Source: Egibacteraceae bacterium (GTDB taxonomy: Bacteria > Actinomycetota > Nitriliruptoria > Euzebyales > Egibacteraceae). Taken from it: 35,345 nucleotides of DNA. Under the pieces are notes generated by a model, which was not told where the DNA came from, searched no databases, and saw only the letters and a list, made by a program, of their open reading frames with translations. A program made the position numbers and the translations under genes. The stretch is from assembly GCA_040905805.1 (NCBI GenBank), contig JBBDQS010000069.1, positions 1 through 35,345 of the forward strand, in the 5' to 3' direction. Of this stretch, positions 161 to 12,443 are shown one piece after another. Each line of letters starts with the position of its first letter. Positions within the stretch are counted from its first letter, which is position 1.

Positions 161-985
161 TCAGGCGCCCACTCGGAGGGCTTGGCGGGTGACCGCGGCA
201 GCGGTACCGATGACACCCAGCGTCGCCAGCCCGATGGGCAGGCTGCGGCCGTCGGGTCCCGGTGTCGGCGGGGGCAAGGCGACGGATCCCTCGGCCTCCC
301 CGAGCGGCTGGTGTCCTGGTGCCTGGGTGCTGCCCTCGCTGATCTCCAGGTCTGCGAAGACGACCACGTTGTCCTCGTAGCTGCGCGCCGCAGGGTCGAA
401 CCGTCCCGCGCAGGTGACAAGGCGCAGCGTCGGCGCCTCGGTGTGCCCGTACACCGCCGTGGTGGGGAAGGCGTCCTTGGCGTGGGTCTCGACGCGGGCG
501 ACGCGGAAGTGCACGTCCGAGCCGTCGGCCCGCTGGACCGTCACCCGGTCTCCGGCGGCGGCGCCGGCAAGACCGAAGAACGCCCCGGGCCCATCGTGCG
601 AGTCGACGTGGCCGACGATGACCGCTGCGCCCGGTGCCCCGGGGATCGCGCCACCGGTCCACCACCCGGCTGTTTGCGCGTTCTCGGGGACTTCCAGGCT
701 GCCGTCGGCGTGCTTGCCCAGCGCGATCGTGTCCGCCGTGATGCCCCGCGCGGCGACGTGGACCCGGGCCGGGTCGGCCGGGAGCTGCGGCGCTGGGTCT
801 GTCCGGCCATCCGCCGAGGGCTGGGCCACGGGCGCTTCGGCGGGTGCCGATGGCGTGGCGAACCACACGGCCATGGCCACGACCGTGCCGACGATGGTGA
901 GCACGCCGGCGCATGCCACCGCCCCGCCGTGGCGTGAGCCAGGCCGGGCGGTGGAGGCCGGCTCCTGCGGCGGCGGCACGGCCAT
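161..985 (-). CDS. Class E/F-type sortase (transpeptidase)
   Basis: Membrane-anchored sortase of 274 residues that would act outside the membrane, cutting sorting signals and joining proteins to the wall or to pilin-like partners. One TM helix lies at about residues 22-43, then a Pro/Ala linker, then the sortase barrel at about 85-212. The catalytic His is His126 in VGHVDS and the catalytic Cys is Cys192 in LVTCAGRFD, as in the short actinobacterial class E/F enzymes. The third catalytic residue (Arg) is less clear: Arg201 is the nearest candidate, and the position before DNVVV is Glu. A second hydrophobic stretch (about 249-266) followed by basic residues extends the protein beyond the usual end of the fold. 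The start has no good Shine-Dalgarno site, but the stop of the upstream gene is only 6 bases away, so translation is probably coupled to the small exported protein. The exact class is uncertain. Confidence 0.85.
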   Translation of the reverse strand: MAVPPPQEPASTARPGSRHGGAVACAGVLTIVGTVVAMAVWFATPSAPAEAPVAQPSADGRTDPAPQLPADPARVHVAARGITADTIALGKHADGSLEVPENAQTAGWWTGGAIPGAPGAAVIVGHVDSHDGPGAFFGLAGAAAGDRVTVQRADGSDVHFRVARVETHAKDAFPTTAVYGHTEAPTLRLVTCAGRFDPAARSYEDNVVVFADLEISEGSTQAPGHQPLGEAEGSVALPPPTPGPDGRSLPIGLATLGVIGTAAAVTRQALRVGA

Positions 986-991
986 CAGAAG

Positions 992-1366
992 CTAGAGCGC
1001 CTGCGCCCGTACAGCGCGGCGGCGGACGGCCAGGCCCGTCGTCATGAGCGCGAGCAGCCCGGCGGCGACCGCGTGGGGGGCGCCCAGACCGTCGGTGTCA
1101 GCGGCCATGCCACCGAACCCGGCAGAGACGCCGCCGGTCGGGGGCGTCGCATCGATGACCGGGCTCTGGCCGGGAGCGGGAGCGGGAGCGGGAGCGGTGG
1201 TCGTGGGGCTCGGGTCGACGAAGCCTGGCCCCGTGGGTTGGAAGCCCTCCCCGGTGGTCGCCGCCGCCGGGCTGGCGAACCCCAGGGCGAGCGCCAGCGC
1301 GAACGCGAGCACGGTGGTGGCGAGAAGCGGCAGACGGAGCGCATGGACGGCGGTGGTATGTGTCAT
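992..1366 (-). CDS. Small exported Pro/Ala-rich surface protein
   Basis: A 124-residue protein of unknown function. I chose the ATG preceded by GGAAGGT at six bases; the frame stays open upstream but that part looks non-coding. It has a signal peptide ending near PAAA, then a Thr/Pro/Ala stretch with alternating Pro-Ala, a TPPTGG motif, a Gly-rich part, and a C-terminal hydrophobic helix followed by RRR. The hydrophobic-plus-basic tail is like that of a sortase substrate or a tail-anchored surface protein. TPPTG resembles the xPxTG core of sorting signals, but it lies about 20 residues before the helix instead of next to it. It is directly upstream of the sortase gene in the same run, so a role as the sortase's dedicated substrate is a reasonable inference but is not shown. 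Confidence 0.7.
   Translation of the reverse strand: MTHTTAVHALRLPLLATTVLAFALALALGFASPAAATTGEGFQPTGPGFVDPSPTTTAPAPAPAPGQSPVIDATPPTGGVSAGFGGMAADTDGLGAPHAVAAGLLALMTTGLAVRRRAVRAQAL
1172..1195. repeat. 6-bp tandem repeat in a surface-protein gene
   Basis: Four copies of GGGAGC (plus strand) encode the alternating Pro-Ala stretch of the small exported protein. Copy-number change by slippage would lengthen or shorten the linker without shifting the frame. Confidence 0.8.
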
Positions 1367-1473: not shown

Positions 1474-1908
1474 TCAACCGGTGACGGTGACGGTGCCTTG
1501 CATGAACGGGTGCGGCGTGCAGAAGTAGCGGTATTCGCCGGGTTCGGTGAACTGCAGCGCTGCGCTGTCCCCGCGGCCGTCGAAGGTGAGGTGGAACGCG
1601 CCTGTGGGCTCGGCGTCGACCCCGGCGGTCACGGTGTGACGGGTGGCGTCGGTGTTGGTCCAGCGCACCGTGTCGCCGGCCTGCACCTCAACGGTCGGCG
1701 GGACGAAGTTGAACATGGCGAGCTCGACCTCGGCGGCGGGCTGGGCGTCGACCGGGTCGACCTCGGCGACGGCCCCGGTGTCAGCAGCCGACTCCTCGGC
1801 GGCGGGATCGTTCGTGGCGGCGGGCTCGGCGGCGTCATCCTCCCCGTTGGCACAGGCCGTACCCAGAAGGACAAGCGTCACGAGGACGCTGGTGGCGGCA
1901 ACGCGCAT
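1474..1908 (-). CDS. Cupredoxin (plastocyanin/amicyanin-like) lipoprotein
   Basis: A 144-residue exported blue-copper protein. The chosen ATG has a CCGAGAGG site about seven bases upstream; the longer open frame before it does not look coding. A lipobox (LGTAC, Cys19) follows the signal peptide, so the protein should be lipid-anchored on the outer face of the membrane. An acidic Ala/Glu/Asp linker leads to the cupredoxin fold (about 60-144). The type 1 copper ligands are visible: His91 in RHTVTAG, then Cys130, His133 and Met136 in YFCTPHPFM. The family carries single electrons between redox partners. It is followed at 107 bases by the small surface protein and sortase genes, and preceded by the four-histidine lipoprotein gene with a terminator between them. 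Confidence 0.9.
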   Translation of the reverse strand: MRVAATSVLVTLVLLGTACANGEDDAAEPAATNDPAAEESAADTGAVAEVDPVDAQPAAEVELAMFNFVPPTVEVQAGDTVRWTNTDATRHTVTAGVDAEPTGAFHLTFDGRGDSAALQFTEPGEYRYFCTPHPFMQGTVTVTG

Positions 1909-2010: not shown

Positions 2011-3312
2011 CTAGCTGTTGATCGCTGCGTTCAGGGAGTCGATGGCACCGGCCAGCGTGGAGATGTGTCCCCGCAGGCCCTCGGCCACCGCATCGGCAGG
2101 CAGCTCGCCACCGGAGATGTTCTCGAAGAACGCTCCGGCGTCACCGGTGTAGCCGGCCAGGTCCTCGATGGCCTGGGCCTGGGCCTGCTGGTCGCCGCCG
2201 GCGGTCGCCACGGCGTAGTCGACGAAGAAGCCGATGTGCTGGCGCCACAGCTCCAGGAACGCTTCGCGGTTCTCGTCTCCGGCCACCTGGCCGATGCCGT
2301 CGGCGAGCTCGACGGAGTTGGCGTCGAGCGTCGCGGCAGCCGCCTCGAATGCCGGGCTGTCAGCACCCTCGGCGTAGGCGGTCTTGACCGCCAGGCCGGC
2401 GAGGTAGACGTGCTCCTGCAGCCCCGCGGTCAGACCTGAGCGCAGCTGCGAGGCCTGCGACTCGGTGTCACCGTCGGCCTCGATAGCGGTGGCGATGCCG
2501 CCGGCGAGCACGGCAGCGCCCCCCACGACGTGGTCGGCTGCACCCTTGAGCGCGTCGAACGCCCCGGCGTCGCCGGCGGCGAAACCGTCGATCGCGGCGG
2601 TCAGCGTGGCGATGTGGCCCTGCAGGCTCTGCGCGACCGCGTCGGCCGGCAGCTCGCCTCCGGTGATGCTCTCGAAGAAGGCACCGGCGTCGCCGGTGTA
2701 GCCCTCGAGGCTGTCAAGCGCCGTCTGGCGAGCCTCCTGGTCGCCGCCGGCCTGTGCCACCGCGTAGTCGACGAAGAAGCCGATGTGCTGGCGCCACAGC
2801 TCCAGGAACGCCTCACGGTTGTCGGGGCCTGCCGCAGAGCCGACCAGGTCGGCGAGCTCGACGGAGTTCTCGTCCAGTGCTGCCGCGGCGAGCTCGAACT
2901 CGCCGCTGTCCGGGCCGAAGCCGTAGGCGGTGTCGACGGCGAAGCCGGCGAGGTAGACGTGCTCCTGCAGCAGACCGGTCAGGCTGGCGCGCAGCTCGGA
3001 GGCGCCGCTGTTCGGGTCGCCCTCCATGGCGGCCGCCGTCGCGATGCCACCGGCGAGCGTCTGTGCGGCCCCCTTGACGTGGTGAGCGGCGGCCTTGGCG
3101 TCGGCGAACGGGTCGCCGGTGCTGGTGATGTCGACCGCGAACTCCGAGGGAGCCTCCGGGTCGTCGGTCTGGCCGACATCGGCGTCGTCGGGCTCTTCCA
3201 TGCCGACGTCGTCGGTGGGTGGGGCCTCGTCGTCGGTCCCGCAAGCAGCCAGGGCCAGTGCAGCGGCGGCCGCAGCCGCGAACGGTGCAGCCTTGCGGCG
3301 GAATTGTGTCAT
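2011..3312 (-). CDS. Lipoprotein with duplicated four-histidine helical domain
   Basis: A 433-residue lipoprotein. GGAGGA lies ten bases before the chosen ATG; a GTG one codon upstream is equally possible. The lipobox is LAAC (Cys24), followed by an acidic linker. The rest is two copies of one helical domain of about 175 residues at a constant 183-residue offset (549 bp). Counting from the GTG, His79, His119, His177 and His234 of copy 1 match His262, His302, His360 and His417 of copy 2, in motifs such as LQEHVYLAG, LWRQHIGFF and GHI. The domain resembles the C-terminal part of Bacillus proteins commonly labelled copper amine oxidase N-terminal-domain proteins. That label does not describe this part, so I would not call it an amine oxidase. 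Four invariant His per domain, between two cupredoxin genes, suggest metal or haem binding; this is inference. Confidence 0.85.
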   Translation of the reverse strand: MTQFRRKAAPFAAAAAAALALAACGTDDEAPPTDDVGMEEPDDADVGQTDDPEAPSEFAVDITSTGDPFADAKAAAHHVKGAAQTLAGGIATAAAMEGDPNSGASELRASLTGLLQEHVYLAGFAVDTAYGFGPDSGEFELAAAALDENSVELADLVGSAAGPDNREAFLELWRQHIGFFVDYAVAQAGGDQEARQTALDSLEGYTGDAGAFFESITGGELPADAVAQSLQGHIATLTAAIDGFAAGDAGAFDALKGAADHVVGGAAVLAGGIATAIEADGDTESQASQLRSGLTAGLQEHVYLAGLAVKTAYAEGADSPAFEAAAATLDANSVELADGIGQVAGDENREAFLELWRQHIGFFVDYAVATAGGDQQAQAQAIEDLAGYTGDAGAFFENISGGELPADAVAEGLRGHISTLAGAIDSLNAAINS

Positions 3313-3523: not shown

Positions 3524-3895
3524 ATGAAGAGCTCCAACCGCATGGTCCTTGTTGCAGCCGCCACGATCGTGCTTGCCGCGACGGCATGCAGCGGTGACGA
3601 CGCCGGCGAGTCCGAAAGCGGTGGCGCGGATGGCGAGACGGTGGTGGTCGAGGGCTTCGCCTTCGACCCCGAGCGGCTCGAGGTGTCCACGGGCACGACC
3701 GTCGTGTGGGAGAACGTGGACGGGGTCCGCCACACCGTGACGTCGGGGACCCCGGATGACGAGGACGGCACCTTCGACGTGGACCTGCCGGAGGCCGAAG
3801 CCAGCGGCGAGCACACGTTCACCGAGGCGGGGACCTTCGCGTACTTCTGCCAGGTCCACAACTCGATGATCGCCGAGATCGTCGTCACCGAGTAG
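3524..3895 (+). CDS. Second cupredoxin (plastocyanin-like) lipoprotein
   Basis: A 123-residue exported blue-copper protein. AGGAG lies six bases before the ATG. The signal peptide ends in the lipobox LAATAC (Cys22), so the protein is expected to be membrane-tethered. After an acidic linker the cupredoxin fold runs from about residue 38 to the end. Copper ligands are His70 in VRHTVTSG and Cys109, His112 and Met115 in YFCQVHNSM. It is a shorter relative of the cupredoxin lipoprotein on the other strand, and both flank the duplicated four-histidine lipoprotein, which is a plausible redox partner. The anti-sigma factor gene follows on the same strand after 119 bases. Confidence 0.9.
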   Translation: MKSSNRMVLVAAATIVLAATACSGDDAGESESGGADGETVVVEGFAFDPERLEVSTGTTVVWENVDGVRHTVTSGTPDDEDGTFDVDLPEAEASGEHTFTEAGTFAYFCQVHNSMIAEIVVTE

Positions 3896-4014: not shown

Positions 4015-4719
4015 ATGACCGACCACGCCCACGTGCTGGCCGGCGCGTACGCACTGGACGCGCTGCCCGACGACGAGCGTGCGTTCTTCAGCCGCCATCT
4101 GGCGGTGTGCCCGGCGTGCCGCGTCGACGTGGACGGGTACCTGGAGACGGCTGGGCTCCTCGCGCAGGTGGTTGCCCGCACTCCTCCCACCTCCTTGCGC
4201 ACCGGTGTGCTCGACGCCGCCGCAGGGATACGGCAGGACTCGTCGTCGTCGCCGCGGAGCGGACGCCGCGGGCTGCCCGACCGGCTTCGTCCGCAGCTCG
4301 CGGCGGTCGCCGGTCTGCTCGTCGCCGCGTTGCTCAGCCTCGGCGGGCTGTCGGTCTACCTCCACGAGACACCGCGGGACGCGGCGGCGGTGGCCATCGC
4401 CCCCGAGTTCCTTGCGGTGGCCCAGGCCGTCCCCCTGGACGCTCCCGAGGGCGTCGAGGTGACGTTCCTGCACGCCGCCGACGAGGGCTACCTGGTCGCC
4501 ACGGGACTCGACGAGCTCGGCACGGCCGGGGACTACCAGCTCTGGCTCTTCCATGACGGGGTGCCGGTCCCCGCCGGGGTGTTCGACGTGGGGGCCGAGC
4601 GCACGGCGGTGCAGGTCCAGGCACCGGTGCGCGGCGCCGAGCTGATCGCGGTGACCGCCGAGCCGGACGGGGGGCGCGCCGCACCCAGTGGGCCGGTCCT
4701 GTTCAGCGCACCGTTGTAG
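4015..4719 (+). CDS. RskA-family anti-sigma factor with zinc motif
   Basis: A 234-residue membrane protein. The ATG has GGAAGG upstream. The N-terminal cytoplasmic part has the zinc anti-sigma motif His28-x3-Cys32-x2-Cys35 (HLAVCPAC), one TM helix lies at about 95-115, and the exterior part (about 125-234) has the RskA-like beta-rich domain, including the DYQLWLFHDG-type segment. Such proteins hold an ECF sigma factor at the membrane until a signal destroys the zinc site or triggers proteolysis. The sigma gene is normally adjacent and upstream, but here the upstream gene is a cupredoxin and no sigma factor gene occurs anywhere in the window. It may act on a distant sigma factor or sense envelope redox state together with its neighbours; the latter is inference. 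Confidence 0.88.
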   Translation: MTDHAHVLAGAYALDALPDDERAFFSRHLAVCPACRVDVDGYLETAGLLAQVVARTPPTSLRTGVLDAAAGIRQDSSSSPRSGRRGLPDRLRPQLAAVAGLLVAALLSLGGLSVYLHETPRDAAAVAIAPEFLAVAQAVPLDAPEGVEVTFLHAADEGYLVATGLDELGTAGDYQLWLFHDGVPVPAGVFDVGAERTAVQVQAPVRGAELIAVTAEPDGGRAAPSGPVLFSAPL

Positions 4720-9819: not shown

Positions 9820-10623
9820 TCACGGCTGCAGCGCGGCGGCGGCGTAGGCGATCTGCAGGGGCGCGCACCAGATCACGATCGAGCCGATCTGCTCTGGGTC
9901 GACGTCGTCGGGCAGCACGTAGTTCTGGGTGCCGAAGGTGGTGGTGACCACACCGAGGTCGACGTGGGGTACCTCGAAGACGTCCTCGGACGTCATGGGC
10001 TCGTCGCTCTCGCTGACCCAGACGAACAGGTCCGGGCTGGCCACGGTCTGGAAGTCGGTGAACCGCAGCGCGAGCTCGCCGTCGGGCATCCGGTAGAGCG
10101 TGGCGGTGCCCTCCCCGCTCCGCTCGACGCCGTAGAACTCCCCGGTGGCCAGGACCTCCGCCTGGTCCATGCCCTCCAGGGGAGGCTCCTCGTGGACGGT
10201 GTCGACCTGCTGCTCGATGGTGGCCTCCCAGGGGCCGGAGGCCTCGATGCCGAGCTCGATGATGCCGGTCTCGATGGAGAAGGCCTCGCCCTCGTCGGGG
10301 CACTCGGCGTCCAGCAGGGGCTCGTCGGCGTCGGTGTCCAACCCCATCTGCAGCTGCCCCTCGTCGCAGCGGTAGCGCACCCGCCACTGCAGGACGTCCT
10401 CAGGGATGGGGAACTCCTCGGTGGCCGGGCCGTCGCCCGACACCGTGAGGATCTCCTCCCAACGGGGAGCCGCCCGCTCGGGCGCGTCCTCGTCGGGCAG
10501 GGCGCGCTCCACCGTCTCGAAGGGGTCCCCCAGGGCGTCGTCGTCGGCGGTGTCGTCCCCGCACGACACCAGGGCCAACACCACCGCCATCAGGAGGGCG
10601 AGGCGGCGGGCGTGGGCGCTCAT
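9820..10623 (-). CDS. DM13-domain lipoprotein
   Basis: A 267-residue exported lipoprotein. The ATG overlaps the stop of the upstream gene as ATGA, so the two are translationally coupled; a longer in-frame start is less likely. The lipobox is ALVSC (Cys21). Residues 50-145 form an acidic region with Cys86 and Cys108 that I do not recognise. The C-terminal DM13 domain (about 157-263) is recognisable from GEFYGVERSGEGTATLYR, SPDLFVWVSES and the conserved Cys253 in IWCAPL. DM13 has been predicted to be an extracellular electron-transfer or redox domain with that Cys as the key residue. Its coupling to the PAP2/vanadium-peroxidase-like lipoprotein suggests that the two act together outside the membrane; this is inference. 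Confidence 0.87.
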   Translation of the reverse strand: MSAHARRLALLMAVVLALVSCGDDTADDDALGDPFETVERALPDEDAPERAAPRWEEILTVSGDGPATEEFPIPEDVLQWRVRYRCDEGQLQMGLDTDADEPLLDAECPDEGEAFSIETGIIELGIEASGPWEATIEQQVDTVHEEPPLEGMDQAEVLATGEFYGVERSGEGTATLYRMPDGELALRFTDFQTVASPDLFVWVSESDEPMTSEDVFEVPHVDLGVVTTTFGTQNYVLPDDVDPEQIGSIVIWCAPLQIAYAAAALQP

Positions 10624-12089
10624 CGGTCCGCCCCGTCCTGCTCGGCCCACTCGACGACCTCGGCGCCGACCGCGCGACCGAGCTTCAGCGCCTCGACGTT
10701 GTCGGGCTCGTGGTGGATGCCGCCGTACAGCCGGGAGATCGACGCCTCCTCGGCGCGCTCACGGAACAGGTCGGCACGTTCGGGGAACAGGTAGGACATG
10801 ACCATCTCCGCGGCGCCCGAGTAGGCGCCGTGGCCGGACACGTAGCCGGGGAAGATCGGCGTGTCCCGGTATGGCTCCCAGTCCGGGTCGATGCCCAGGT
10901 CGCGGATGGCGTTCTCCGGTCGCGCGCCCCAGTAGGTGTACTTGGCGTCCCACGCCGCCACGGCCGCGTCGTCCATGGCCACGTTCAGCAGCGCCAGCGC
11001 CCGCGCCGACTGGGGCAGGCTCAGCCGCTGGTCGGCCAGGAACGCCAGCACCACCTCGTTCCAGATGCCCGGCGGCAGCGCGGTGCCCTCACCGCCCTCC
11101 CAGAACCTCGCGATGGCCTTCTGCTCCTCGGTCAGGTTCTGGTCGACCTCGTAGACCTCGAGCATGGCGTCGTAGAACTCCTGGGAGTCCGGCGCCGGCG
11201 GTGGGGGCGGGCGGAACTGGTCCCCGGACTCGAGCACCCACGTCTCCCACGACCCCGCCCGCGGGCTGACCGGCACCTGCACCGACCCCGGCGGTTGCGT
11301 CCACAGCCCCTCCTCGTCCGGGCGCAGCTCCTCCCAGTTGGCCGCACCCTCGCGCGTGGTCAGGTCCTCGTCGGTCACGACATCGGCCTGCGCCCGCTCC
11401 AGCACCAGCTCACCGACCGCCCTGCCGAGCTCGAGGCCGGCCTCCGCGTCGCTCGGGAAGCTCACCCCGGCGAGCACGCGCGACTCGGCGGCCTCCTCGG
11501 CCTGCTGGTGCAGGCGCGGGGCCGGCTGCTCGGGGAAGGCGTAGGCCAGGACGGTCGAGGCTGCCCCGGCGATGGCCGCATGACCCGAGGGGTAGGAGGG
11601 ATCGGGCTCGGCCGCGGCCGGTCCCTCACCCGCGGTCTCCGGGCCGGGCCGGTCGTAGAGGTGCTTGTAGTGCCACGTCGCGACGCTGGCGTCGTACATC
11701 GCCGTGGCAACCAGCGCGTACGAGCGGGACGCCGCAACCGGGTCCTTGCTGCGCTGCGCGATGAAGTCCAGGGCCATCTCCATCCAGGGCGCCACGGCGG
11801 GCTCGACGTCCCACCGCTCCACCTGCTCGACGGCTTCGGCGTCCAGGGACGCCGTGGCGTCTGCCGCGGCGTCAGCGTCGCTCTCGGCCTCCGCGGAGCC
11901 AGGCTCGGGCGGAGGCGGCACGGCGACCTCGTCGGCGTCGGTCAACAACCAGGTCTGCCACGACCCGGCCGTGGGGTCCGGGCCTGCGCCGTCGCCCGAG
12001 GCGGTGCTCTGGGCGCAGCCGCTCAGCACGAGCGCGAGGACGATGAGCACACCGCCGGTCAAGCGGTGACACGGGTCGCGTACCAGCAC
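10620..12089 (-). CDS. Duplicated PAP2 / vanadium haloperoxidase-like lipoprotein
   Basis: A 489-residue lipoprotein. I place the start at a GTG seven bases after GAGGAG, which puts a signal peptide and lipobox (LSGC, Cys25) at the N-terminus; the upstream open frame is not convincing. The mature protein has two related halves, each opening with GSW(Q/E)TW(L/V)L. The C-terminal half has all the marks of the PAP2/vanadium haloperoxidase family: Lys383-x6-Arg390-Pro391, SGH 418-420, and SRLYGGIHHEPD with Arg453, His459 and Asp463. The N-terminal half keeps Arg147-Pro148 and SGH 168-170 but has His140 at the Lys position and Ser210 at the second catalytic His (SRVLAGVSFPSD). So probably only the C-terminal half is catalytic, as a phosphatase or peroxidase on the cell exterior. 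The substrate cannot be read from sequence. It is coupled to the DM13 lipoprotein. Confidence 0.85.
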   Translation of the reverse strand: MLVRDPCHRLTGGVLIVLALVLSGCAQSTASGDGAGPDPTAGSWQTWLLTDADEVAVPPPPEPGSAEAESDADAAADATASLDAEAVEQVERWDVEPAVAPWMEMALDFIAQRSKDPVAASRSYALVATAMYDASVATWHYKHLYDRPGPETAGEGPAAAEPDPSYPSGHAAIAGAASTVLAYAFPEQPAPRLHQQAEEAAESRVLAGVSFPSDAEAGLELGRAVGELVLERAQADVVTDEDLTTREGAANWEELRPDEEGLWTQPPGSVQVPVSPRAGSWETWVLESGDQFRPPPPPAPDSQEFYDAMLEVYEVDQNLTEEQKAIARFWEGGEGTALPPGIWNEVVLAFLADQRLSLPQSARALALLNVAMDDAAVAAWDAKYTYWGARPENAIRDLGIDPDWEPYRDTPIFPGYVSGHGAYSGAAEMVMSYLFPERADLFRERAEEASISRLYGGIHHEPDNVEALKLGRAVGAEVVEWAEQDGADR

Positions 12090-12443
12090 CGTTTCGCTCC
12101 TCAGACTTGACCGCGTGGAATCCCCCACCCTGCGAAGGCGCGGGGCGGGCCAGGCGTGCAGTATCGCGCGCTCCCGCGGGGCACGCTCGCAATCGCCGCT
12201 CATTGTTGCACACCTCACGACCGGGTCACTAGAGGCGTCGCGCACTTACGTGGAGCCCTCGCGCTTTCTAGGATGGTACGTCCGCGGGCTCCTGTCGAGG
12301 GTCTGCGGGCACCCGGCCGCTCCCGCGAGTCGATAAGAACTCGTCGTGGGCGCCACCGGGCGCAACCGGGCGCAACCGCATGAGGCGGAGGGAGGGTTCC
12401 GCAGGGCCGGTGCCGCTTCAACCCGTCCCCTTGGAGAACATCT
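12090..12443. promoter_or_regulatory. Gene-free divergent region, lipoprotein operon / zinc-finger-kelch operon
   Basis: 354 bases with no supported gene. It must hold promoters for both divergent operons. Visible structures are a small hairpin CGAGT...ACTCG (12326-12343) and two tandem copies of ACCGGGCGCA (12355-12374). I could not find a convincing -35/-10 pair on either strand. Confidence 0.5.

Follow-up and report, generated by a model that had tools for sequence, protein, structure and literature searches.

A lipoprotein with a tandem four-histidine repeat, probably an undescribed metal-binding partner of a neighbouring cupredoxin

The stretch of DNA that we analysed (hereafter the window, 35,345 nucleotides) encodes a lipoprotein with a tandem four-histidine repeat which, judging from its sequence and gene neighbourhood, probably serves a neighbouring cupredoxin as an undescribed metal-binding partner. 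In its full form, our reading is that of a surface-located helical repeat protein that would have two four-His metal sites, with copper the likeliest metal, and would be partnered with the adjacent cupredoxin, and we give it a probability of roughly 45%. Profile comparisons further indicate that the four-His proteins are part of a wider, unnamed superfamily.

Genomic context of the four-histidine gene

The features of the window that matter here are the following.

161..985 (-): class F sortase (NCBIfam NF033748, E 2e-50, above cut-off)
992..1366 (-): small secreted protein with the motif PTGGVSAGFGG, a hydrophobic stretch and an RRR end (by motif; weak match to NCBIfam GVDTG_CTERM, E 0.031)
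1474..1908 (-): cupredoxin lipoprotein 1, downstream of the four-His gene on the same strand (Pfam Copper-bind, E 4e-15; amicyanin-like)
2011..3312 (-): predicted tandem four-His helical lipoprotein, 433 residues from an ATG at 3312, stop included in the coordinates (open frame, internal repeat, AlphaFold2)
2026..2445 (-): repeat unit B, with His301, Asn332, His359 and His416 (profile alignment)
2491..2994 (-): repeat unit A in the stand-alone order, with His118, Asn149, His176, His233 and His261 (profile alignment)
3034..3111 (-): N-terminal helix, residues 68-93, with His78, equivalent to the final helix of the stand-alone unit (AlphaFold2 and profile alignment)
3238..3312 (-): lipoprotein signal peptide with lipobox LAAC (sequence)
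3524..3895 (+): cupredoxin lipoprotein 2, divergent (Pfam Copper-bind, E 8e-8)
4015..4719 (+): RskA-type anti-sigma factor (Pfam RskA_C, E 7e-17; NCBIfam NF052375, E 7e-42)

A first-pass annotation of this DNA, made from the letters alone, had placed the gene between two cupredoxin genes and proposed that all three products are lipoproteins. The two Copper-bind matches bear out the first point, and lipobox-type N-termini seen on inspection (LAAC, GTAC and ATAC for the four-His protein and the two cupredoxins) agree with the second. Only five Copper-bind matches are present in the 3.6-Mb genome of the window, and two of the five flank the four-His gene, an arrangement that chance would rarely give.

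Further along the window, no sigma factor gene was seen adjoining the RskA-type anti-sigma gene, beyond which lie a MIase-like gene and a two-component pair. A PAP2-superfamily protein weakly similar to vanadium chloroperoxidase is encoded at 10620-12245 (-).

The internal repeat and its permuted order

When the four-His protein is compared with itself, two copies of 183 residues align without gaps and are identical at 125 positions (68%). The histidine pairs 78/261, 118/301, 176/359 and 233/416 are each spaced by exactly 183 residues, as the first-pass annotation had noticed, and a ninth histidine, His77, is not conserved. The accompanying claim that the residues flanking the histidines vary is wrong, given the overall identity of the copies; EHVYLAG and FLELWRQHIGFFVDYAVA, for example, have the same letters in both. 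With two copies this similar, the repeat on its own says little about the histidines, and homologues had to decide.

Elsewhere, the stand-alone unit runs from helix 2 to the helix that carries the fourth His, at its end; this order, helices 2-6 and then the fourth-His helix, is that of the single-domain and Planococcus proteins described below. In the window protein, as in its closer relatives, the fourth-His helix comes first and is absent at the end; relative to the stand-alone order, the window protein is thus circularly permuted. From this permuted order, the fourth His of unit B is probably supplied by the N-terminal helix.

Homologues and misleading labels

A species-level collection yielded homologues on 24 contigs. 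Among 101 related genomes, 35 gave a match (some of the weakest span the signal peptide only), and a stricter limit applied to 396 Actinomycetota genomes gave 29. At one locus (L032, G050), the four-His gene has three or more repeat units, of which two are almost the same. Searches of phages and viral contigs gave no relative of the four-His protein.

Plasmid records contributed tandem homologues from Planococcus (Bacillota), annotated as "copper amine oxidase". Two of these in RefSeq, WP_065524945.1 and WP_232336900.1, share with the window protein the tandem four-His units (36-38% identity over about 88% of the query), and one of them likewise adjoins a cupredoxin gene. They differ in that their units end with the fourth-His helix, whereas those of the window protein begin with it, and in that they carry a C-terminal MPxTGxGG sorting signal and hydrophobic tail. 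Through Planococcus we also found secreted single-domain relatives in Priestia, Niallia, Cytobacillus, Paenibacillus, Nocardioides, Methylocystis and Bradyrhizobium, that is, in Bacillota, Actinomycetota and Pseudomonadota. In these the four His and the Asn follow one another as in the tandem units, but there is only one copy of the unit, and no cupredoxin in the stretches fetched. A seed of just three sequences (the window protein and Planococcus) already matches the single-domain proteins with E values from 7e-22 to 3e-7 among 4859 frames, and we therefore regard tandem and single-domain proteins as truly homologous. The profile match is significant across the whole unit.

Neither profile nor sequence searches placed the window protein in any Pfam, NCBIfam or PDB sequence family. 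The best PDB sequence match, a BMC-H fusion, covered 43 columns with an E value of 0.0059 and was not convincing, and scattered sub-threshold Pfam matches, different from one family member to the next, were discarded. The suspicion raised at first reading that the usual label of such sequences, copper amine oxidase (Cu_amine_oxidN1), does not fit was justified: no Pfam or NCBIfam amine-oxidase profile matches the window protein or its Planococcus relatives. Two of the single-domain relatives are annotated as "glycosyltransferase", which no profile supports, and the others as hypothetical. In the literature searched, we found no link between the labels of this family and cupredoxins, RskA or sortase.

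Conservation of the histidines and the asparagine

The homologues gave a clear answer on the histidines, whose conservation had been proposed as a check on the first reading. A profile alignment of 142 repeat units drawn from three phyla (Actinomycetota, Bacillota and Pseudomonadota) shows the four His conserved at 99, 92, 94 and 87% and one Asn at 99%, each at a fixed column, and all four His are present in 98 of the 117 complete units. The second, third and fourth His tend to be lost together in a unit (Fisher p at most 0.003, 50% clustering). When counted on the tree, this co-loss comes down to three independent pairs and is not significant, and because the independent events are few we do not use it as proof.

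Predicted structure and candidate ligands

AlphaFold2, run with 22 aligned sequences, gave a confident model of 12 helices (pLDDT 92.9, pTM 0.90), and a single unit was modelled as six helices (pLDDT 84.7). The helical domain suggested by the first-pass annotation thus holds in so far as the model is all-helical, but the repeat unit has six helices and is not a simple four-helix bundle. Foldseek searches of the PDB produced no more than noise: a best E value of 0.88 for the single unit, with TM-scores of at most 0.40 among the matches listed, and for the full-length model a best E value of 0.015 with a TM-score of 0.15. A ferritin-like or DUF2935 assignment was also rejected, the window protein having no such profile or fold match and one relative reaching E 0.047, below the cut-off.

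The His and Asn lie near mid-helix, at 0.38-0.52 of helix length, and random placement would be equally central for the five residues of one unit in about 5 of 100,000 cases. Three of the four His face the core: those of helices 2, 4 and 6 are 24-47 degrees off the hydrophobic moment, and the fourth is 87-97 degrees off the core direction. Mid-helix and mostly core-facing histidines fit a shared central layer, as a common site would require, although such a layer need not imply bonding distance. This indirect geometry favours the first-pass annotation over its refuting case of distant, exposed histidines.

Histidines from different helices at one level of a helical core also recall bis-His haem bundles. 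The protein could accordingly be imagined as an extracytoplasmic carrier that holds haem b on its four His, in bis-His pairs, and exchanges electrons with the cupredoxin, cupredoxins being electron carriers. We consider this unlikely, as the window protein matches no cytochrome or haem-bundle profile or solved fold, no haem-related gene was seen at the locus, and the protein has no CXXCH motif, the single cysteine in its 433 residues being that of the lipobox. A c-type cytochrome was rejected for the last reason.

Copper is known to be held in helical bundles by the copper storage proteins (Csp), which have many cysteines, and by other helical copper proteins. A helical bundle holding copper is what we propose for the four-His protein as well, but the cysteine-lined four-helix bundle of Csp contrasts with the lone lipobox Cys, and in the absence of any profile or fold match we do not place the protein among the Csp.

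Association with cupredoxins across loci

In the tandem family, 44 of 68 loci, Planococcus included, have a cupredoxin gene near the four-His gene, and some of the loci without one are cut by contig ends. The neighbouring cupredoxin sequences have visible His/Cys/His/Met copper ligands; proximity of the genes need not mean that their products touch. None of seven single-domain relatives has a cupredoxin within the stretches fetched, which implies that the domain can act without one.

The sites might instead hold a redox-inactive metal such as zinc, or be di-iron or other di-metal sites for storage or sensing, the link to cupredoxins then reflecting shared regulation only. Zinc would suit four-His sites, and genes for RskA-type anti-sigma and ECF-like sigma factors are often found nearby. 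Against this stand the strength of the cupredoxin association, which persists with the cupredoxin gene upstream, downstream or divergent, and the absence of ferritin- or hemerythrin-type carboxylates from the most conserved columns, save for one Asp kept at 85% among units; we thus judge this explanation improbable.

We favour a copper site that works with the cupredoxin. The gene product would be a membrane-anchored extracytoplasmic protein of two six-helix repeat units, in each of which four His and an Asn contributed by separate helices would converge in a central core layer to hold a metal ion, copper being the likeliest. The adjacent cupredoxin would be its direct partner, to which it would hand on copper or an electron on the outer side of the membrane.

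Two other observations were made at these loci. The Planococcus versutus cupredoxin WP_049694956.1 (L072:5116-5628 (-)) matches the Copper-bind profile with its two halves exchanged and is apparently a circularly permuted cupredoxin. At L009, L010, L012, L013, L017, L018, L020, L021, L025 and L077, the cupredoxin/four-His pair is accompanied by small hydrophobic proteins that fall into two clusters and have conserved His and a "GPIPNMYEP" or "EAPYMG" motif; they have no confident Pfam match and are probably membrane proteins.

A branch linked to class F sortases

At ten loci a class F sortase gene lies near the four-His gene; two are from Planococcus lenghuensis and eight are actinobacterial (L036, L038, L043, L046, L047, L048, L049 and L069). 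All eight actinobacterial proteins have the motif [LM]PxGGxxTGxGG 4-7 residues from their end and no hydrophobic tail, and five of the eight have an N-terminal lipobox. The tailless motif may be an unusual sorting signal, in which case the lipid anchor would replace the membrane helix. Both P. lenghuensis proteins, as well as the cupredoxin-linked P. versutus protein, end in MPxTGxGG, then a hydrophobic stretch, then basic residues. From these C-termini and the gene linkage, we infer that the sortase-linked four-His proteins are candidate substrates of class F sortases, enzymes with physiological roles that the literature describes as unknown (PMC13251363).

The window four-His protein has no sorting tail, and the one in its neighbourhood belongs to the small protein encoded between the sortase and cupredoxin genes. 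Small secreted proteins with PxGGVxAGxGG, a hydrophobic stretch and a basic tail occur at 992-1366 (-) in the window and at L002, L026 and L027; those of the window and L002 adjoin a class F sortase. The window protein of this kind is, by its motif, a probable class F sortase substrate. At the other class F sortase loci of the window genome, no protein with the motif was present in the stretch fetched.

In another explanation, the four-His proteins would be surface spacers or adhesive repeats whose buried His and Asn hydrogen-bond the helices together and bind no metal. The sorting-like C-termini of this branch are as in surface proteins, and its first unit often lacks three of the His and is still recognisable. 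We find this still harder to credit than haem or zinc, since His conservation across three phyla exceeds that of most core positions and the link to cupredoxins would be left unexplained.

Implications

Taken together with the metal-binding reading, a broader proposal can be made more tentatively: that these proteins form an undescribed metalloprotein superfamily with a fold unmatched in the PDB, built of six-helix units with a central four-His/Asn site and, in three phyla or more, either secreted or anchored at the surface, of which the tandem form would work with cupredoxins and a second branch would be displayed by class F sortases. The family is extracytoplasmic and widespread, yet it has no curated model and its labels, "copper amine oxidase" and "glycosyltransferase", mislead. 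The sortase-linked branch supplies concrete substrate candidates for class F sortases, which would gain a candidate substrate class if the superfamily reading is true. If the family binds copper or haem, then Actinomycetota and Planococcus would have a new surface partner for their small copper proteins.
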